The notes beneath the pieces were generated by a model. It saw only the letters and a program-made list of their open reading frames with translations. It had not been told where the DNA came from and searched no databases. Of a stretch of 64,000 nt of DNA, positions 3,721 through 54,165 are shown piece by piece. The position numbers and the translations under genes were made by a program. This DNA is from Actinotalea subterranea (GTDB taxonomy: Bacteria > Actinomycetota > Actinomycetes > Actinomycetales > Cellulomonadaceae), in NCBI RefSeq assembly GCF_008364845.1, contig NZ_VTTP01000003.1:248001-312000 (forward strand), written 5' to 3'. The first letter of the stretch is position 1. The number at the start of each line of letters is the position of its first letter.

Positions 3721-3729
3721 GGCATGGAA

Positions 3730-3890
3730 CAGCCCGTGGGCTACCGGTCAGGGGGACCGGCGCGCCGTGCTGGACGATGCACGGCTCCCACGGGCTGCGG
3801 TGACTGCCTGGGTCTCGCTGCCGCACGAGCGGTAGGGGACCGGAGGCAATCCGTCCGATGCCATCGGGCGACTAGCGGGCAGTCACCTCA
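3730..3890 (-). promoter_or_regulatory. Highly structured leader RNA overlapping a 12-codon ORF
   Basis: Two long perfect inverted repeats lie in series. The first pairs 3878-3887 (inside the leader ORF) with 3799-3808, GGTGACTGCC against GGCAGTCACC, and encloses two small hairpins (3855-3867 and 3821-3832). The second pairs 3787-3797 with 3730-3740, CAGCCCGTGGG against CCCACGGGCTG, and encloses a GCCGTGC/GCACGGC hairpin and a CCGGTC/GACCGG hairpin. A ribosome on the leader ORF would cover one strand of the first helix. It matches no riboswitch class I recognise; ribosome-mediated attenuation is an inference. Confidence 0.6.
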
Positions 3891-3910
3891 CGCGTCCGAA
3901 GAGAAATCAT
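3872..3910 (-). CDS. Putative 12-residue leader peptide (MISLRTREVTAR)
   Basis: ATG at 3910, stop TAG at 3872-3874. It has a very strong Shine-Dalgarno, GAAAGGAGGT at 3921-3930 (minus strand), and sits about 30 nt behind a good promoter. The strength of initiation for so short a frame, and the burial of its last codons in a 10-bp helix, suggest that the act of translation matters rather than the peptide. No run of one amino acid codon reveals a starvation signal; arginine occurs three times. Confidence 0.6.
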   Translation of the reverse strand: MISLRTREVTAR

Positions 3911-3943
3911 CTTCTGGACCACCTCCTTTCCCGTGTGACAACG

Positions 3944-26237: not shown

Positions 26238-26455
26238 GACGCGGCTCCTGGAGGACGAGGGACGGCTGCGGCCCGGTGCGTCCGAGCCTCAGGCTTACTG
26301 ACGGTCGGCGGCAAGGAAATTGATCGGGGTGCGTGGACGACTGCCGGCAGGAGCGCGCGGGCAGCCGTCGGCGGGTGGGCTCCGCGTACCGCGGCTAGGG
26401 TTTCAGCGGGCCGAGGGTGACCGACCGCCCGCACCGGAGCCGACCGAAGGGCAGC

Positions 26456-28282
26456 ATGCGACGCACGACGTCCCGGGCCGGAAGGACGGTGCTCCTCACC
26501 GTCGCGATGGGCAGCCTCGCGCTGCTCGCGTGCACCGCGGCGTCCCCCCACGGCGACCAGGCGGCGGCCCTCGCCGTCGAGCCCCAGGCGGAGGCGACCA
26601 CGGCGCCCGCCACGCCACCCCCCGTGCAGCGTCCTGACGTGGTGCTGCCCGACGCCCCGGCGACCGTCCTCGCCGGCGCCGACGCATCCGCGCGCGCGGT
26701 GGAGATGAGCACGACGCTCTACGAGTCGGCACCCGTCGCCGTGCTCGCACCCGCGGACGACGCGACCGCCCAGCTGCTCGGAGCCCGCACCGCCGTCGCC
26801 CTCGGCGTGCCGCTCCTGCTCACCCCGGCACCAACCCCGGCAGCGACGCCCGCGCCGCCGGTGGATACAGCCCCCACGCCCGAGCCGGCCGAAACCGCCG
26901 CGCCCACCGAGCACGACCCCGCCGAGGTCCGTGCGTCCGCCACGGCCGCCGAGCTCGACCGTCTGGGCGCCCAGGCCGTGCTCGCCGTCGCCGGCTCCGA
27001 GGACTGGGCCACGGCATGGGCCGACGACGCCGACGACGACACCCGGGTCGTCGCACCCCTCCCCCGGAGCGAGAGCGCCGTCGAGCGGCTCATCGGGGTC
27101 CCGCTCCCCACGTCACCCGACGCCAGCGCAGGTCAGGAGGTCGCCGCGGTCGCCACCCTCGAACGGCCCGACGTGTCCGACGCGTCGGACGAGGGAGCTG
27201 CCTCCGACCCGACGCCGAGGGCCACCGACCTACCGTCCACCCGCCCGGCCGACCCGCTCGACGACGCCCTCGTCCTGACCACGGGCGACCCGCTCGACCT
27301 CGCAGCGCTCGCGACGGCCCGCGCGGCCGGCGCCGACGTCGTGACCGCCCCCGGCGGCGACCCGCGCTCCACGAGCGCGACCGTGCAGGCGTTCGCCGAC
27401 GCGAAGCCGCACGCCGTGATCGGCCTCGGCAGCGCCGTCGGCTCCGCGGAGCGCCTCGCGACCCGGGCGGCGACCGCGGCCACCGGCGTCGAGCTGCCGG
27501 GCGGGGGGCAGGTGCTCTTCCCCGGGCGTCGCCTCGTCGCGCTCTACGGGACGCCGCACTTCGCGGGCCTCGGCCTCCTCGGCGAGCAGGACCTGCCAGC
27601 GACGATCGCGCGCGCGCAGGGGCAGGCGGCCGCCTACCAGCCCCTCACGAGCGACACAGTGGTCCCGACGCTCGAGCTCATCGTGACCGTCGCGTCGGCC
27701 GAGGCCGGCCCGGACGGCAACTACTCGAACGAGCTCCCGGTCGAGAGCTTCATCCCGTGGGTCGAGGCCGCCCGCGACGCCGGCCAGTACGTGGTCATCG
27801 ACCTCCAGCCGGGCCGCACCGACTTCGTGACCCAGGCCAAGGCGTACGAGGCGCTGCTGCTCTACCCGAACGTCGGGCTCGCCCTCGACCCCGAGTGGCG
27901 CCTCGCACCCGACCAGGTCCACCTGCGGCAGATCGGCTCCGTGCACGCCGACGAGATCAATGCGGTCTCCGCGTACCTCGCCGAGCTCACGCGCACGCAC
28001 GCGCTGCCGCAGAAGCTCCTCGTGCTTCACCAGTTCACGAACCGGATGATCACCGCACGCGAGACCGTCGACACGTCGCACGACGAGCTGCACGTGCTCA
28101 TCCACGCCGACGGGCAGGGCAGCCAGGGCGCCAAGGCCGGCACGTGGGCGAGCCTCCACCAGGGTGCGCCCGCCGGGGTCGCGTGGGGGTGGAAGAACTT
28201 CGTCGACGAGGACGTGCCGATGCTGACGCCCGAGCAGACCTACCAGGTCCAGCCGCTGCCCGAGCTCGTCACGTACCAGTAG
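26456..28282 (+). CDS. Secreted lipoprotein, about 608 residues, unknown function
   Basis: The product starts MRRTTSRAGRTVLLTVAMG and has a lipobox-like LALLAC, so it is probably a lipoprotein. The N-terminal half is Ala/Pro/Thr-rich and includes alternating DDATAQLLGARTAVALGVPL blocks that resemble cell-wall-binding-repeat-type folds. The C-terminal about 280 residues form a compact domain (ELIVTVASAEAGPDGNYSNE; GQYVVIDLQPGRTDFVTQAK; LALDPEWRL) that looks like a TIM-barrel-type glycosidase fold, but I cannot name catalytic residues. ATG 26456 has GAAGGGC before it; a GTG at 26417 is an alternative. Confidence 0.7.
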   Translation: MRRTTSRAGRTVLLTVAMGSLALLACTAASPHGDQAAALAVEPQAEATTAPATPPPVQRPDVVLPDAPATVLAGADASARAVEMSTTLYESAPVAVLAPADDATAQLLGARTAVALGVPLLLTPAPTPAATPAPPVDTAPTPEPAETAAPTEHDPAEVRASATAAELDRLGAQAVLAVAGSEDWATAWADDADDDTRVVAPLPRSESAVERLIGVPLPTSPDASAGQEVAAVATLERPDVSDASDEGAASDPTPRATDLPSTRPADPLDDALVLTTGDPLDLAALATARAAGADVVTAPGGDPRSTSATVQAFADAKPHAVIGLGSAVGSAERLATRAATAATGVELPGGGQVLFPGRRLVALYGTPHFAGLGLLGEQDLPATIARAQGQAAAYQPLTSDTVVPTLELIVTVASAEAGPDGNYSNELPVESFIPWVEAARDAGQYVVIDLQPGRTDFVTQAKAYEALLLYPNVGLALDPEWRLAPDQVHLRQIGSVHADEINAVSAYLAELTRTHALPQKLLVLHQFTNRMITARETVDTSHDELHVLIHADGQGSQGAKAGTWASLHQGAPAGVAWGWKNFVDEDVPMLTPEQTYQVQPLPELVTYQ

Positions 28283-28338: not shown

Positions 28339-28364
28339 TCCGGGCCCGCCGCGGCGGGCCCGGA
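28339..28364. terminator. Bidirectional terminator hairpin
   Basis: TCCGGGCCCGCC-GC-GGCGGGCCCGGA, a perfect 12-bp stem, between the converging ends of the lipoprotein gene (stop 28282) and the 54-residue ORF (stop 28370). Confidence 0.85.
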
Positions 28365-28369
28365 CGACG

Positions 28370-28534
28370 TCAGACCTGCGTGGACGCCTGCGTGGGGAGG
28401 ATGCCGAAGCATGCGCGCTGGCTCGCGATCGCGGCCCAGCGGGCCAGGAGCTGCGGCGGGACGGGGAGGTCGACCGCTGCGCTGCTGCTGTCGTCGAGGG
28501 AGTATGCCGATCCGGCAAGGCCGAAGTCACCCAT
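28370..28534 (-). CDS. 54-residue protein of unknown function under c-di-GMP riboswitch control
   Basis: ATG 28534 to TGA 28370. The N-terminal half is Ser/Asp/Ala-rich (GSAYSLDDSSSAAVDLP); the C-terminal half has an amphipathic helix (PQLLARWAAIASQRA) with one Cys and a polar end (PTQASTQV). No signal peptide or membrane helix is apparent. GC-rich third positions, a riboswitch ending about 20 nt upstream and a terminator just downstream all argue that it is real and forms its own transcription unit. The ribosome site is weak (AGCAGAG), which fits translational control. The function is unknown; a role in a motile-sessile decision is only inferred from the ligand. Confidence 0.65.
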   Translation of the reverse strand: MGDFGLAGSAYSLDDSSSAAVDLPVPPQLLARWAAIASQRACFGILPTQASTQV

Positions 28535-28544
28535 GGCGCTCTGC

Positions 28545-28625
28545 TTTCGTTCGGTAGCCCGGCTGACCTCGAGGGTCCCGTGGCTTTGCGTCCCTGCCTC
28601 GCGACAGGTTTGCCATTTTCGCTGA
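28545..28625 (-). promoter_or_regulatory. Cyclic di-GMP-I (GEMM) riboswitch
   Basis: On the minus strand the core reads GGCAAACC (28607-28614), a stem capped by a GCGA tetraloop (CTGTCGCGAGGCAG), then GGGACGCAAAGCC (28582-28594) and the closing AGCCGGGCTACCGA (28551-28565). These are the defining blocks of the class I c-di-GMP aptamer in the right order and spacing, including the GNRA loop and the GCAAAGCC receptor. It precedes the 54-residue ORF, not the divergent peptidase. The aptamer ends about 20 nt from the ORF start, so control may be at translation initiation. Confidence 0.85.
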
Positions 28626-28786
28626 CGGTTCACTGTAACCTCCGCGCAACCTCGACAGGCCCGAGAGGCCTGATGCCACCCGTTCGGAGTAGTTCTTTTC
28701 ACCCGCGTGTCGGGCCGTACCCCTCATGTCCGGGGCCGCCCGGCCGATCGAGAGGACGGACACACCCGACCTGGAGGGACGCCCGC

Positions 28787-29407
28787 GTGGAGGCTGTCGC
28801 CAGCATCAACCAGCGGATCCTCGAGATCCGCAGCCACATCGCGACCGTGGCACCGCCCGTCGTCGTCACTTCACGTGCGGCGGCCCTCGGCACCGGTGCG
28901 ACCCAGGGCGCGAGCTTCGCGTCCGCCCTCGCCGACGCCATGGGGACCACCTCGGCGTCGATGCTCGCACCGACGGAGGTCGGCTCGGGCAAGAGCCTCG
29001 TCAACGCGAAGGGCGTGCCCAACGAGCTCCTCGTGCACGGCAACGGCAAGGTCCCGGCAGACGCGCTGAGCGAGATCGGCGACACGGGTCACCGGCTGTG
29101 GACCCCCGCGGCGCGCTCGCTCGAGGCGCTGCGGGACGACGCGGCACGTGACGGCGTCACGATCGGCATCACCGACTCCTACCGCACCTACGAGTCCCAG
29201 GTGGACCTCGCCCAGCGCAAGGGCCTGTACTCGCAGGGCGGCCTGGCCGCCGCACCGGGCACGAGCATGCACGGCTGGGGCATGGCGACGGACCTGAAGC
29301 TGGATGCCACGGCGCAGGCATGGATGCGGGAGAACGCCGGCAGGTACGGGTTCGTCGAGGACACCCCGCGCGAGCCCTGGCACTGGGGCTACCACCCCAC
29401 GCACTGA
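28787..29407 (+). CDS. M15-family (VanY-like) D-alanyl-D-alanine carboxypeptidase
   Basis: A 206-residue zinc peptidase. The C-terminal M15 domain shows GITDSYRTYESQVDLAQRKG, the zinc motif SMHGWGMATD (His and Asp ligands) and the C-terminal EPWHWGYH with the catalytic Glu and third ligand His. No signal peptide is present. The N-terminus (VASINQRILEIRSHIA, then ASFASALADAM) resembles the start of flagellar rod-associated hydrolases, which leave through the flagellar export apparatus; this is an inference. GTG 28787 has a strong GGAGG. It is divergent from the c-di-GMP riboswitch unit. Confidence 0.85.
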   Translation: MEAVASINQRILEIRSHIATVAPPVVVTSRAAALGTGATQGASFASALADAMGTTSASMLAPTEVGSGKSLVNAKGVPNELLVHGNGKVPADALSEIGDTGHRLWTPAARSLEALRDDAARDGVTIGITDSYRTYESQVDLAQRKGLYSQGGLAAAPGTSMHGWGMATDLKLDATAQAWMRENAGRYGFVEDTPREPWHWGYHPTH

Positions 29408-35082: not shown

Positions 35083-35583
35083 TCAGATGACCAGCACCGA
35101 CGCGTGGCCCGAGCCGTAGCCCGAGACCGTGAGCTCCATGTCGAGGCGCGCGACGTACGCCGTCACCCACTTGTTGACGTCGGGCGGCAGCACCTCGTTG
35201 GGCGCATACGCCTCGTACAGCCGCACGTGCGGGCAGCCGTCGTGGTTGAAGAGCGACGCGGCGATGTTGAGGATCTCCCGCGCGTTGTCGTAGAGGACCG
35301 GTGTCAGCAGGCCCGCCTCGATCGCCGAGTTGGCGGTGGCGGCCGGCATGAGCGCGATCGACGCACCGAGGTACGCGGTCAGCGGCATGTCGACGACGAT
35401 GAGCGAGCGCAGCTTGAGCATGTCGTCGACGTACACGCCGACGACGGCGCCCGGACGCTCGTGGGGGTTGACGATCGCGGTGCCGACGTTGCCGTCGACG
35501 TCGCGCCCCAGCAGGCCCTCGAGCAGCTCACGCACCTCGAGCGCCGCCGGCAGCGGCGTCGGGCGGGTCACCTGGCCGCTCAT
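35083..35583 (-). CDS. CheC/CheX-like protein, last gene of the che operon
   Basis: A 166-residue protein that shows the CheC-family phosphatase signature D-x3-E-x2-N (DNAREILN) once, in LLTPVLYDNAREILNIAASL, at the expected place after a beta sheet (GAVVGVYVDDMLKLRSLIVV). These proteins dephosphorylate CheY-P. The match is short and the rest is divergent, so some uncertainty remains; a docking or adaptation role is also possible. It overlaps the upstream cheY by 4 bases (35580-35583), making it its likely partner. Confidence 0.65.
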   Translation of the reverse strand: MSGQVTRPTPLPAALEVRELLEGLLGRDVDGNVGTAIVNPHERPGAVVGVYVDDMLKLRSLIVVDMPLTAYLGASIALMPAATANSAIEAGLLTPVLYDNAREILNIAASLFNHDGCPHVRLYEAYAPNEVLPPDVNKWVTAYVARLDMELTVSGYGSGHASVLVI

Positions 35584-35942
35584 GCGAGGAAGGGGTCGAT
35601 GGTGTCGCGGAACACCTCGGCGCTGAACGGCTTCGCGATGAGGAACAGCGCGCCCGCGGCGTCGGCCTGCTCACGCATCTCCGTCGAGCCCTCCGACGTG
35701 ACGAACCCGAACGGGATGTCCATGCCCTGCGCGCGCATGGTGCGCAGCAGCTCGATCCCCGTCATCTCAGGCATGTTCCAGTCCGAGAGCACCAGGTCCG
35801 GGTCCATGTTGATGGCGAGCTCGAGCGCCGCGGCGCCGTCGGGCGCCTCGGTGATCTCCCACCAGTCGTACCCCGCCTGGCGGAGCGTGCGGATGACGAT
35901 CTGACGCATCACCCGGCTGTCGTCGGCAACCAGGACTCTCAT
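35580..35942 (-). CDS. cheY: Chemotaxis response regulator CheY (second copy)
   Basis: A 120-residue single-domain receiver: acidic pair D7/D8 in VADDSR, phosphoacceptor D54 in VLSDWNMPEMTG, switch T82 and K104 in LIAKPF. It has no output domain, so it acts by binding the flagellar switch or as a phosphate sink. ATG 35942 is chosen because GAGGTGG sits 6-7 nt before it; a GTG 9 nt upstream overlaps that ribosome site. It is coupled to the CheC-like gene. Confidence 0.9.
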   Translation of the reverse strand: MRVLVADDSRVMRQIVIRTLRQAGYDWWEITEAPDGAAALELAINMDPDLVLSDWNMPEMTGIELLRTMRAQGMDIPFGFVTSEGSTEMREQADAAGALFLIAKPFSAEVFRDTIDPFLA

Positions 35943-35997
35943 CGGTTCCACCTCGTTCGTGCGTCGTTGCTGTTCGGTGCAGTGCGCCGCCGGTCGT

Positions 35998-36474
35998 TCA
36001 CAGGAGCCTCCAGAGGCCGATGACGACCATCCGGCCCCGCCAGTCGAGCGGCAGCTCGTACATCAGGCCCTCGGCGTCGATCTCGGGTCGTTCGTGCGCC
36101 ACCTGGGGCAGCGTCAGCGCACCGGGGTCGGGGACCAGCGCCTTGACGTTCCCGCCGACGACGTTCGCGACCTCGCCCAGGGCGTCGGCCATGTCGGTCT
36201 CGCTGAGGACCTCGTCCTCACCCATCGCGAGCAGTGCACGCGAGAGGTGCTCCACGGTCTCGCGCTCCGCGGTGAGCAGGACCCGGCCCGGCAGGGCGCC
36301 GTGGACGTCGACCCATGCGTACATGGGGTCGGTGAGCTCGGCCTGGTCACCCTCCCAGGGTCGCAGGAAGCCGGGCTCCCCGTCGACCATCGCGGTGAAG
36401 ACCTCCTCGGCGATGACCCAGATGGGGTCCGTCCCCGAGAAGTCGTCCAGCGCGATGTTGATGTCCAGGCTCAT
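35998..36474 (-). CDS. cheX: CheX-type chemotaxis phosphatase
   Basis: A 158-residue protein with the CheC/CheX catalytic signature D-x3-E-x2-N (DALGEVAN) in ETDMADALGEVANVVGGNVK, followed by a Pro-rich segment ending PQVAHERPEI. It should dephosphorylate CheY-P. The N-terminal beta-sheet region contains PMYAWVDVHGALPGRVLLTA. It starts inside the stop of the first cheY (overlap 36471-36474) and precedes the second cheY, so each cheY has one candidate phosphatase coupled to it. Confidence 0.8.
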   Translation of the reverse strand: MSLDINIALDDFSGTDPIWVIAEEVFTAMVDGEPGFLRPWEGDQAELTDPMYAWVDVHGALPGRVLLTAERETVEHLSRALLAMGEDEVLSETDMADALGEVANVVGGNVKALVPDPGALTLPQVAHERPEIDAEGLMYELPLDWRGRMVVIGLWRLL

Positions 36475-36854
36475 GCCGACTCCTCAAGTCCGACCAGCCC
36501 GAGGAGCTGGAGCTTGTCCCGGATCGCGTCCGGGGTGAAGGGTTTGATGACGTACTCGTGGGCGCCAGCGGCGAGCGCGCGCACGATCTGGCTGTGCTCG
36601 CTCTCCGTGGTGATCATCATCAGGGTGACGCCGCGCCACGTGCGGTTCTCCCGCACGGCGGTGACGAAGTCGAGCCCGTTCATGACCGGCATGTTCCAGT
36701 CGATGCAGGCGAGGTCGACCTCGGTGCCCGCCTCGAGGATGTCGAGCGCCTCACGGCCGTCCGCGGCCTCGAGGGTCTCGAAGCCCAACGGTTGCAGTGT
36801 CCCTGCGATGATGCGCCGCATCGTGCGCGAGTCATCGATCACCAGTGCTCTCAT
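36471..36854 (-). CDS. cheY: Chemotaxis response regulator CheY (first copy)
   Basis: A 127-residue receiver with D7/D8 (VIDDSR), phosphoacceptor D52 in LACIDWNMPVMNG, T82 and K104 (YVIKPF). Overlaps cheR and cheX by 4 bases each. It has a short C-terminal extension (LGLVGLEESA). Which of the two CheY proteins drives the motor cannot be told from sequence. Confidence 0.92.
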   Translation of the reverse strand: MRALVIDDSRTMRRIIAGTLQPLGFETLEAADGREALDILEAGTEVDLACIDWNMPVMNGLDFVTAVRENRTWRGVTLMMITTESEHSQIVRALAAGAHEYVIKPFTPDAIRDKLQLLGLVGLEESA

Positions 36855-37681
36855 GCTGCCCTCCGGGCCGCGAGCCGGTAGACGGAGCCGCGACCGACCG
36901 CGACCCTCTCCCAGCCCTCGTCGATGCCGATGGTTGTCTCTGCCGCGCCCAGGAGCAGGTAGCCGCCGGGTCGTAGGACCTGCTGGACGCGCCGGAGCAC
37001 GTCCCGCTTGGTCGCGAGGTCGAAGTAGATCAGGACGTTGCGCAGGAAGACGACGTCGAACGGTCCGCCCGGCGGTGGCGCGTCCAGCAGGTTGTGGCGC
37101 TGGAACGAGATCGCGGACCGCAGCGCCGGGGCGATCTCCCAGTCGGCTCCGATCCGGGTGAAGTGCTTGACGAGCATCGGGGCCGGCAGGCCGCGGTTGA
37201 TCTCGAGTTGGCTGTACCGGCCGGCACGTGCGCGGTCGACCATGAGCTGGTTGATGTCCGTCGCGACGATGCGGAGCTGGACCTGGGGGACGGCGTCGGC
37301 CAGGACCATCGCGATCGAGTACGGCTCCTGCCCGCTCGAGCACGCCGCGGACCAGATGCGCAGGGTGGGTGCGCCGAAGCCGCTGCGGTCCTCGAGGAGC
37401 TGGGGCACGACGTGCTCGGTCAGGGCGTGGAACGGCTGGGCGTCGCGCAGCCAGGACGTCTCGTTGGTGGTGAGCGCCTCGACGACGGCCTCGAGGGCCG
37501 CCGGGCTGGGCGTCGCGCGCAGGCCGCGCACGTACGTGTCGACGTCGGTGGTCCCGGCGGCGCGGGCGATCGGCAGGAGCCGGCTCTCGACCAGGTACTC
37601 CTTGCCGGCCTCGAGCTGGATCGCGCTACGGCGCCGCACGAGGTCGGCGACGAAGGCGAAGGAGTCGGCGCTCAGGCTCAT
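36851..37681 (-). CDS. cheR: Chemoreceptor methyltransferase CheR
   Basis: A 276-residue S-adenosylmethionine-dependent enzyme that methylates receptor glutamates. The N-terminal helical domain includes VEALTTNETSWLRDAQPFHA, the SAM-binding core is LRIWSAACSSGQEPYSIAMV (family motif ACSTGEEPYS), IVATDINQLMVDRARAGRYS and FDVVFLRNVLIYFD. The start ATG overlaps the cheB stop by 4 bases. The length is normal for CheR. There is no C-terminal extension for pentapeptide docking. Confidence 0.95.
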   Translation of the reverse strand: MSLSADSFAFVADLVRRRSAIQLEAGKEYLVESRLLPIARAAGTTDVDTYVRGLRATPSPAALEAVVEALTTNETSWLRDAQPFHALTEHVVPQLLEDRSGFGAPTLRIWSAACSSGQEPYSIAMVLADAVPQVQLRIVATDINQLMVDRARAGRYSQLEINRGLPAPMLVKHFTRIGADWEIAPALRSAISFQRHNLLDAPPPGGPFDVVFLRNVLIYFDLATKRDVLRRVQQVLRPGGYLLLGAAETTIGIDEGWERVAVGRGSVYRLAARRAA

Positions 37682-38796
37682 CGGGCGTCTCCTGTCGCAC
37701 TCAGCTCCGCCGAGGTGACGGTGCGGGTGATGGCTGCTGCGACCTCGTCGATGGGGAGGATCGCGTGGGCGAGGCCGGCTCCGGCGACAGCACCGGGCAT
37801 ACCCCAGACGACGCTCGTGGGCTCGTCCTGGACGATCACGGTGCCGCCCGCGGTCGCGACCTCCTCGCAACCGACCTTGCCGTCCGAGCCCATCCCGGTC
37901 AGGACGACGGCGAGCAGGTCCCCGCCGTAGACGCCGACGGCGGACTTGATCATGACGTCGACGGCGGGCCGGCAGAAGTTGACGGGCGGACCCTGGCTCA
38001 GGTGGGTGCGGGCGCCCGACGCCGAGCGCGTGAGCTCGAGGTGGAAGTCGCCGGGGGCGATGTAGACGGTCCCGGGCTGGAGGTCCTCGCCGCCGGCCGC
38101 CTCGACGACCGAGCTCGGGCCCAGGCGGTCGAGCCGCGCGGCGAGCTGACGCGTGAAGACGGGCGGCATGTGCTGCACGACGACGATGGGCACGGGCAGG
38201 GGCGCCGCGAGGCTCTTGAGCACGCGGGACAGCGCCTCGGGCCCACCGGTCGAGGAGCCGAGGACGACGGCACGGATGGGCCGGCGCAGGCCCTCGGGGC
38301 GCGGCCGCAAGCGCGGCTTGGCACGCTCCGGGGCCGGACGCGCGGGCCCGGGGGCCGAGCGCAGGCCGGGCAGGTCCGAGCCCGTCGGCTTGGGGACGAA
38401 CGCCTTGATGCGCGGGATGAGCTCGCCGGCGACCTGCGCGAGCGACTGCTGGACGCTGCCGACGTTGGCCGGCTTGGTCACGTAGTCCGTGGCGCCGGCG
38501 GCGAGGGCGTCGAGCGTCGCGACGGCGCCGCGCTCCGTCAGCGTCGAGAACATGATGATCGGCATGCGGTGGCCGGCCTTGCGCAGCGCGCGGACCGCCT
38601 CGATGCCGTTCATGATGGGCATCTCGATGTCCATCGTCACCAGGTCGGGTGCGAGCTGCTCGACCTTGCTCAACGCGATCTGGCCGTTCGCCGCGACACC
38701 GACGACGTCGATCGCGGGGTCGGAGGAGAGGGCGTCGGTCACGAGCCGGCGGACGACGACCGAGTCGTCGACCACCAGGACCCTGATGCGTGCCAC
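37678..38796 (-). CDS. cheB: Chemotaxis protein-glutamate methylesterase/deamidase CheB
   Basis: A 372-residue two-domain protein. The receiver has D10/D11 and phosphoacceptor D56 (VTMDIEMPIMNG); a Pro/Arg linker (about 145-180) precedes the esterase domain with the catalytic triad: Ser in VLGSSTGGPEAL, His in VVVQHMPPVFT and Asp in VLTGMGSDGKVG. It removes methyl groups from receptors when phosphorylated by CheA. GTG 38796 has a strong GAGGAGG. It heads the cheB-cheR-cheY-cheX group. Confidence 0.96.
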   Translation of the reverse strand: MARIRVLVVDDSVVVRRLVTDALSSDPAIDVVGVAANGQIALSKVEQLAPDLVTMDIEMPIMNGIEAVRALRKAGHRMPIIMFSTLTERGAVATLDALAAGATDYVTKPANVGSVQQSLAQVAGELIPRIKAFVPKPTGSDLPGLRSAPGPARPAPERAKPRLRPRPEGLRRPIRAVVLGSSTGGPEALSRVLKSLAAPLPVPIVVVQHMPPVFTRQLAARLDRLGPSSVVEAAGGEDLQPGTVYIAPGDFHLELTRSASGARTHLSQGPPVNFCRPAVDVMIKSAVGVYGGDLLAVVLTGMGSDGKVGCEEVATAGGTVIVQDEPTSVVWGMPGAVAGAGLAHAILPIDEVAAAITRTVTSAELSATGDAR

Positions 38797-39149
38797 GTTT
38801 CCTCCTCTTTCGCCGCGCTGTGCGACACGATCCAGATCGGCCACGGCGCCCGTCATGTGAGCCGTCCGTGGGTGCTGCGGGCCCGCTCAGCGGGTGAGTC
38901 GTGCCGGGGCGTGGGGCCCCCGTGCCGGAGCGCGGGTGCCCTCACGGGCGTGTCAGTAGGTGAAGGCCTCGACCTTGGTCCGCAGGTCGGCCGCGAGCTA
39001 CGCGAGCTCGTCGGTGGAGGTGCCCATCTGACCGAGCACCTGCGCGGAGGTCGACGCGGCACCGGCGACGCCGTTGATGTTGACGGTGATCTCCCCGGAG
39101 CCGGTGGCGGCCTCGGTGACCCCACGCGACATCTCGTTGGTCGTGGCCG

Positions 39150-53826: not shown

Positions 53827-54165
53827 TCAGCGGCGGGGCGCGGCCGGCTTCGCGGGGGTGACGGCCGGCTTCGCCGACTGGGCGGCCGGCGTCTCGGGCG
53901 CGGACGCACCACTCGCCGCCGCGGGCGCGGGCGGCGTCGGGGGGCGCAGCGCACGCAGGGCCTCGACGGCGTCGTCGTCGGCCGAGCGCGTCGCCTCGAC
54001 GTTGGCCTGGGTCACGGCCTCGAGGATCTCGGCCCGCGTGACGCGGACCTCGCGCGGCGCGTCGATGCCGATGCGCACGCCGTCGCTGCGCACGTCGATG
54101 ACCGTGATGACGATGTTGTCACCGATGATCAGGCGTTCGCCGACGCGACGACTCAGGACGAGCAT
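53827..54165 (-). CDS. csrA: Carbon storage regulator CsrA with C-terminal tail
   Basis: A 112-residue RNA-binding protein. Residues 1-65 are canonical CsrA (MLVLSRRVGERLIIGDNIVI; GVRIGIDAPREVRVTRAEIL), which blocks ribosome binding at GGA sites and in Gram-positives controls flagellin translation with FliW. The last about 47 residues are a Pro/Ala-rich tail (PPTPPAPAAASGASAPETPA) not found in the usual 60-75-residue proteins. It lies between flhF and cheA. fliW is not in this window. Confidence 0.95.
   Translation of the reverse strand: MLVLSRRVGERLIIGDNIVITVIDVRSDGVRIGIDAPREVRVTRAEILEAVTQANVEATRSADDDAVEALRALRPPTPPAPAAASGASAPETPAAQSAKPAVTPAKPAAPRR

Follow-up and report, generated by a model that had tools for sequence, protein, structure and literature searches.

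A c-di-GMP class I-type aptamer linked to an undescribed small-protein family in Actinotalea subterranea and related genomes

Introduction

Usual riboswitch targets are genes of recognisable enzymes, transporters and regulators. On the minus strand of the window, the 64,000-nt stretch of Actinotalea subterranea contig NZ_VTTP01000003.1 analysed here, a first-pass annotation placed a class I c-di-GMP riboswitch ahead of a 54-codon ORF of unknown function. A known aptamer class here marks an undescribed small-protein family, with linkage in 88 of 88 cases, and this linkage hints at when and why the small protein is likely made, ahead of any knowledge of the protein itself. The unit is short, which leaves each step open to testing.

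Identity of the aptamer

All aptamer blocks claimed for the minus strand are there in the order stated, and the covariance-model check proposed with them returned a cmscan match to RF03167 (c-di-GMP-I-GGC) that spans the full model (1–80) and, with 70.7 bits, exceeds the gathering score of 59 (E 9.7e-15; Table 1). At this site, cmscan itself discarded one lower-scoring hit that overlapped the match and belonged to a family of that clan. The ligand-contacting residues of class I, G20, A47 and C92 in Vc2 numbering, are all canonical in the window aptamer. Among 69 distinct leaders readable by pattern, which are related and were selected by a pattern requiring a small ORF, G20 and A47 are each present in 69, while the C92 position holds C in 67, T in one and is unmatched in one. 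The P2 tetraloop is GCGA in the window and GNRA in 69/69 leaders. With these residues conserved, c-di-GMP is the expected ligand, and the aptamer is one of a class already known, as had been claimed; the family RF03167 reportedly stems from a 2017 paper.

Two further RNA elements were matched on the minus strand of the window, the Ms_IGR-5 sRNA at 3724–3936 (86.7 bits) and a glycine riboswitch at 633–731 (68.3 bits).

Table 1. Features at and around the small-protein gene, in window coordinates
Feature	Position	Strand	Basis or remark
Convergent gene, no Pfam/NCBIfam match	26417..28282	+	found in 12/13 fetched relatives
GC-rich hairpin, possible mRNA 3' end	28339..28364	-	3' of stop codon; equalled by 1 of 300 shuffles
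Small protein gene P0001, 54 codons + TGA (MGDFGLAGSAYSLDDSSSAAVDLPVPPQLLARWAAIASQRACFGILPTQASTQV)	28370..28534	-	ORF 14 nt after aptamer match; conservation
Shine-Dalgarno-like purine stretch GAAAGCAGAG	28539..28548	-	directly 3' of aptamer
c-di-GMP class I-type aptamer (RF03167)	28549..28623	-	cmscan score; ligand residues kept in 69 leaders
Divergent VanY-type D-Ala-D-Ala carboxypeptidase ORF	28580..29407	+	PF02557, E 8.7e-12; 12/13 relatives
-10-like element TACAGT	28632..28637	-	near-fixed distance ahead of aptamer
Chemotaxis cluster, near end: family-less ORF, CheY-type response regulator, CheX, CheR, CheB	35083..38856	-	CheX and CheY beside the VanY and small genes in 11/13 relatives

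Layout of the unit

In 65 of the 69 leaders, a TANNNT element is located 25–28 nt upstream of the aptamer's CAAAC and is absent from the rest of the upstream 60 nt. Given this near-fixed spacing, the 5' end of the mRNA is probably located at or just before the aptamer. The distance from CAAAC to the ATG is 75–81 nt in the 69 leaders, and GGA, GAG or AGG occurs within -16 to -5 of the ATG in 67 of them. As the ribosome-binding site directly follows the aptamer, control of the small ORF would most naturally be translational. ViennaRNA folding of the 69 leaders yielded no consistent alternative pairing or switch and favoured neither an ON nor an OFF mode, and no terminator/antiterminator platform was seen for the window unit. 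The ORF has the 54 codons ascribed to it, although the gap to the aptamer match is shorter than the 20 nt first given.

Beyond the stop codon, the hairpin comprises 11 pairs and a 4-nt loop, and its inner 24 nt form a perfect 12+12 palindrome. The perfect palindrome of the 12-bp terminator in the first-pass annotation is thus real, but the hairpin has no U-tract, so that the terminator label can be given only as putative. Of 16 relatives compared, only four possess a hairpin equalled by no more than 1 of 300 shuffles. Many leaders of small genes also contain ACAGGA, which resembles a CsrA site, and a CsrA gene (window 53827–54165; TIGR00202, 76.1 bits versus 70.1) is part of the flagellar/chemotaxis cluster.

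Conservation and predicted structure of the small protein

Relatives of P0001 were recovered from 17 of 200 family genomes, all of them in the genus of the window (17/19 genomes there). A direct scan of named genomes with P0001 gave zero relatives. The 17-member alignment keeps M1, P26, A31, R32, W33, A34, A35, A37, P47 and Q49, and LPxQ is conserved near the C-terminus of P0001. In further genera, other aptamers precede small ORFs of like design (MDQRG...AWAxxAARxxxxxVPAQR), and hhalign joins these to the group of the window's genus with a probability of 97% (E 9.3e-11). In the wider alignment of 42 members, M1, A37 and P47 are fully conserved, and W33 and Q49 almost fully. For the 25 most similar of 1176 pairs, which are mutually dependent, dN/dS ranges from 0 to 0.66 with a median of 0.23; the median pN/pS over all pairs is 0.97, with synonymous sites saturated and N-termini poorly aligned. 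Judged by the matches in 17 of 19 genus genomes and by the median dN/dS of the close pairs, the ORF is a real gene.

Searches of Pfam (17 and 42 members), NCBIfam (17 members), PHROGs and PDB sequences (42 members each) returned matches only at E ~0.1 or more. The ORF was therefore rightly called one of unknown function, and the small-protein family appears to be new as far as these four collections were searched; a literature search by title found no paper on the small protein or on a riboswitch before bldC. The AlphaFold2 model of P0001 consists of a single helix at residues 27–41 (mean pLDDT 70.9, pTM 0.35), with a low-confidence N-terminus. The first-pass annotation had further proposed that the protein is a new c-di-GMP effector. 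This part is unsupported: no c-di-GMP site was recognised in the small protein and nothing indicates that it binds c-di-GMP, whose RNA aptamer would instead control the expression of the protein.

Linkage of aptamer and small protein across genomes

A profile of the wider 42-member set (A2) was searched in the 200 family genomes and matched 93 of them at E ≤ 0.01. At E ≤ 2.4e-5, a level chosen after inspection of the family list with the next match at 6e-4, 88 matches in 84 genomes were retained. Most of the weaker matches are incomplete or fall within long or disrupted frames; a full-length match in G162 (E 0.0036) may be real and was left uncounted. The aptamer is directly ahead of the small ORF in all 88 cases, 63 of which were established by coordinates (gaps of 11–17 nt) and 22 by reading of the DNA (21 by pattern, one by eye), and in the remaining three (G177, G194, G197) the profile match overlaps the aptamer via an offset N-terminus. 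Aptamer matches occur in 96/200 family genomes, which include all 84 small-protein genomes and 12 without the small protein. The whole unit of -10 box, aptamer, ribosome-binding site and ORF of 38–63 codons is found in four genera of the window's family, namely g1, which is the genus of the window, g13, g16 and g20, the other large group, which we take to be Cellulomonas. Conservation of the ORF together with the aptamer, named beforehand as a check, is thus borne out, and as every recovered copy of the small protein has an aptamer in front, the protein is probably a new c-di-GMP-switched regulator.

Among 345 class genomes, A2 had seven matches at E ≤ 1e-3, the window's own among them, and the best match outside the family (G870, E 3.5e-5) falls just beyond the 2.4e-5 level. 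No aptamer was found by pattern at A2-matching loci outside the family. RF03167 itself was matched at E ≤ 1e-3 in 47/345 class genomes including the window's own, in 12 above the cut-off. The few loci outside the family that could be read precede other genes, e.g. those of a response regulator and of secreted proteins, most out-of-family RF03167 loci being unreadable by pattern.

Other genes behind the same aptamer class

The riboswitch had been described as dedicated to the ORF, which does not hold for the aptamer class. The genome of the window has six RF03167 matches, two above the cut-off, three at 51–58 bits and one weak (28.5), and these precede P0001, a long secreted protein (presumably DUF4214-like), a 23-codon ORF, two BldC-like proteins and, in the weak case, an unclassified ORF. 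Genes like bldC are the commonest other readable target; in the reading of loci, the pattern missed 36/199, some of them genuine aptamers ahead of long secreted proteins, and its 155 hit rows include duplicates and false hits, so that class counts are not totals.

Directly behind RF03167-type aptamers, bldC-like genes encode 56 distinct proteins (L005, L025, L031, L042 and others; L004 by eye). Other aptamers of the window's genus are followed by 23–31-codon ORFs of a different kind (L003, L035, L063, L065, L067, L070, L073, L095, L101, L104), which may be leader ORFs; in L003, a secreted-protein gene comes after the short ORF. At L081 (G135, contig 177), the aptamer is ahead of the gene of a putative EAL-domain protein, presumably a c-di-GMP phosphodiesterase, and a feedback loop is possible there. 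Related proteins (FRMWLRPDGVVELAWAP..., 128 residues in L006) are encoded downstream of the aptamers, one of them weak, of L006, L105 and L164.

Genomic neighbourhood and relation to motility

Thirteen relative loci were fetched with alignment A1 and derive from Actinotalea and Cellulomonas (carbonis, bogoriensis and sp. APG4), both members of the Cellulomonadaceae, and from one unclassified MAG. Within contig reach, tblastn showed one conserved gene order in 11/13 loci (CheX, CheY, family-less ORF, VanY, small gene, convergent gene), in most of which CheR and CheB adjoin as well. L333 retains only the family-less ORF (near the locus edge), VanY and the convergent gene, L336 has the convergent gene only, and L337 is without it. 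The true start of the VanY ORF is probably near 28790. In the window, two MFS transporter genes, a glycosidase gene and a TetR regulator gene occupy the ~5.7 kb between VanY and the chemotaxis end, and the near end of the chemotaxis/flagellar cluster is ~6.5 kb from the small gene; CheA, CsrA, FlhB, FlhA and FliR-type genes are also part of the window. The flagellar and chemotaxis genes said to be nearby are therefore found at that distance in the window and adjoining in 11/13 relatives. Other genera have different genes behind the small gene; these include a same-strand ORF in some of the loci listed, e.g. L179 and L196, and the unit thus need not always be monocistronic.

FlhA was found in 96/196 family genomes. 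Small protein and FlhA occur together in 61 genomes, the small protein alone in 19, FlhA alone in 35 and neither in 81, a cross-table that assumes the searched set to be G000–G195 and includes some draft assemblies. The 19 small-protein genomes without FlhA comprise three of the window's genus, which keep a FliA-type match, and 16 of g20, 11 of which were checked for sigma factors and gave no FliA-type match of 150–172 bits (0/11). The supposed link to motility consequently stands in part, with chemotaxis neighbours in 11/13 loci in its favour and the 19 genomes without a FlhA match against it. Because these genomes keep the small gene, it is not a dedicated flagellar part; it is associated with, not dedicated to, flagella. 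A flagellum-only role of the small protein, which we considered, is weakened by the same 19 genomes.

The locus L336 (Actinotalea sp. Marseille-Q4924, G089) comes from a genome with no FlhA match and has no chemotaxis genes within its 12 kb. Its FliA-type sigma gene and small gene are ~3.6 kb apart, as if an intervening cluster had been lost.

Sigma factors and the PxQ motif

In G102 and G115, the aptamer and the small gene are followed by a FliA-type sigma gene, the ATG of which is a few bases past the stop of the small gene; the two loci are nearly identical. The sigma factor matches TIGR02479 with ~170 bits versus the curated 189.6, and this tier is called FliA-type because one such gene lies beyond the flagellar cluster on the window's contig and because the tier is absent in g20 along with FlhA. 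The small protein of these two genomes ends in LPTP and is the sole one of 70 distinct proteins without PxQ in the last 25 residues. In G172, the aptamer is directly ahead of a WhiG-type sigma gene (253 bits), and the N-terminal extension of this sigma factor holds VIPTQR and VPAQR.

Similar motifs recur in predicted WhiG-type extensions, whose true starts may differ. In the stretch that reaches 110 residues back from the conserved core, [VIL]PxQ is present in 20/27 readable loci of g20 (30 fetched), usually as IPxQ, and [VIL]Px[QP] in 17/19 of the window's genus, with VPRP in 15. All 56 distinct BldC-like proteins have [VI]Px[QP] in their tails. The end motif of the small protein, h-P-x-Q (often then R), resembles G[VI]IPxQ of the g20 WhiG-type extensions and [VI]PxQ of the BldC-like tails, and genes of all three kinds occur behind the aptamer class; [VIL]PxQ is a short motif, also present in several of the ORFs listed for the window. 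The motif changes in parallel in the two protein kinds: in the window's genus, both WhiG-type extensions and BldC-like tails mostly have PxP, and PxQ prevails in BldC-like tails elsewhere and in g20 WhiG-type extensions.

Proposed role of the small protein and alternatives

The reading we favour, to which we give an even chance, is that a c-di-GMP riboswitch sets the dose of a small regulator that binds a partner and may act on WhiG/FliA sigma factors. Once bound by c-di-GMP, the aptamer, which probably forms the extreme 5' end of the mRNA, would alter the access of ribosomes to the adjacent start site, which would set the amount of small protein. The protein has a predicted N-terminus that is unstructured, a single predicted helix with LARWAAxA at its centre and, near the C-terminus, a P that never varies and a Q that hardly does; it would most likely act by binding a partner, and a regulatory role of this type is the best inference. 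WhiG/FliA-type sigma factors would be the best-placed partners: the operon of small gene and FliA-type gene in G102/G115 and the WhiG-type gene behind the aptamer in G172 count for this link, and the near identity of the two operon loci counts against it, as does the missing PxQ of their small protein. Chemotaxis genes beside the small gene in 11/13 relatives and the absence of FlgM matches from 19/19 genus genomes also speak for the favoured reading; the 19 small-protein genomes with no FlhA match, the 12 aptamer genomes that lack the protein and the same-strand ORFs behind some units speak against it. The small protein would belong to a c-di-GMP lifestyle programme that also takes in those bldC-like genes that follow aptamers of this class. 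A bolder reading, which we consider quite unlikely, makes it an RNA-dosed competitor in a three-way circuit, in which c-di-GMP would regulate how much docking-motif peptide is available to displace a sigma factor or a BldC-like protein from a shared partner; if true, this circuit would be a c-di-GMP-to-sigma switch unlike RsiG.

The adjoining FliA-type gene in G102 and G115 would also suit a FlgM-like anti-sigma factor that is dedicated to FliA and made or withheld according to c-di-GMP, as would the chemotaxis/flagellar neighbourhood in the window's genus, where a FlgM (PF04316) match is absent from all 19 genomes. We nevertheless consider such a factor unlikely, since the small protein has no sequence match to FlgM (the 42 members gave no significant Pfam match), is kept in the 19 genomes without a FlhA match and persists in the 11 FlhA-less g20 genomes that also have no FliA-type match. 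The order of genes in G102 and G115, with the small gene preceding the sigma gene, could also mean that the ORF serves as a leader or encodes a sensor peptide, or that it is the protein-coding stretch of a regulatory RNA, its protein being functionless in itself. The ORF is very short, and 23–31-codon ORFs of another kind follow other aptamers of the genus, with a second gene next in L003. Purifying selection in close pairs, a protein-level pattern kept over 42 rows and a next gene that is convergent in the window and in 12/13 relatives make this quite unlikely.

Two further possibilities concern the nature of the protein. A shrunken BldC-like microprotein, with a recognition helix and a C-terminal VPxQ tail, might poison BldC oligomers; the aptamer class is common to bldC-like genes, their products share the tail motif (56/56), and hhalign sets VPPQVLARWAA on VDPKTVTRWAK. 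The hhalign probability is, however, 1.7–4.9, with 1 of 100 column shuffles scoring above the full set, and in a two-block profile test the median BldC-like protein is reached by ~5% of the background (157/2745 fragments, 1064/20000 shuffles). An origin from BldC, which had been suggested by eye, is unsupported by both tests, and we regard the microprotein as highly improbable. One predicted helix and a low-confidence N-terminus would agree with a peptide that associates with membranes or is toxic, in place of a regulator that binds a partner. This helix, however, holds the R and W conserved in the window's genus, with the invariant P and near-invariant Q downstream of it, and we consider such a peptide very unlikely.

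Comparison with known systems

Like FlgM, an anti-sigma-28 factor, the small protein is small and linked to FliA, in two genomes; it differs in being shorter, in having no sequence match to FlgM and in persisting where FlhA is missing. BldC binds DNA through a winged helix (PMC5859096; PDB 6ama, 6amk). It shares with the small protein the aptamer class, through bldC-like genes, and a similar [VI]PxQ C-terminal tail, whereas winged-helix homology of the small protein is unsupported by hhalign and the two-block test. The known routes from c-di-GMP by way of BldD and RsiG act through proteins (PMC8325347, PMC6428758). Our results suggest that, in Actinobacteria, c-di-GMP may also reach bldC-like genes and, in isolated instances, sigma genes of the WhiG/FliA type by way of an RNA. 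The RsiG-(c-di-GMP)-WhiG switch, in which c-di-GMP binds between RsiG and WhiG (PMC8325347), shares with the proposed unit the second messenger, a WhiG/FliA-clade sigma factor, the setting in Actinobacteria and sigma control as the proposed outcome; in the proposed unit, where no c-di-GMP site was recognised in the small protein, c-di-GMP would instead act on the mRNA. With c-di-GMP-I/GEMM-I riboswitches (RF03167), the window unit shares an aptamer that passes the curated cut-off in sequence and structure, has the canonical ligand residues and is placed immediately upstream of the gene. It departs from them in its target, a protein of 38–63 residues outside any described family, and in an aptamer with which the mRNA is predicted to begin and which adjoins the Shine-Dalgarno sequence.
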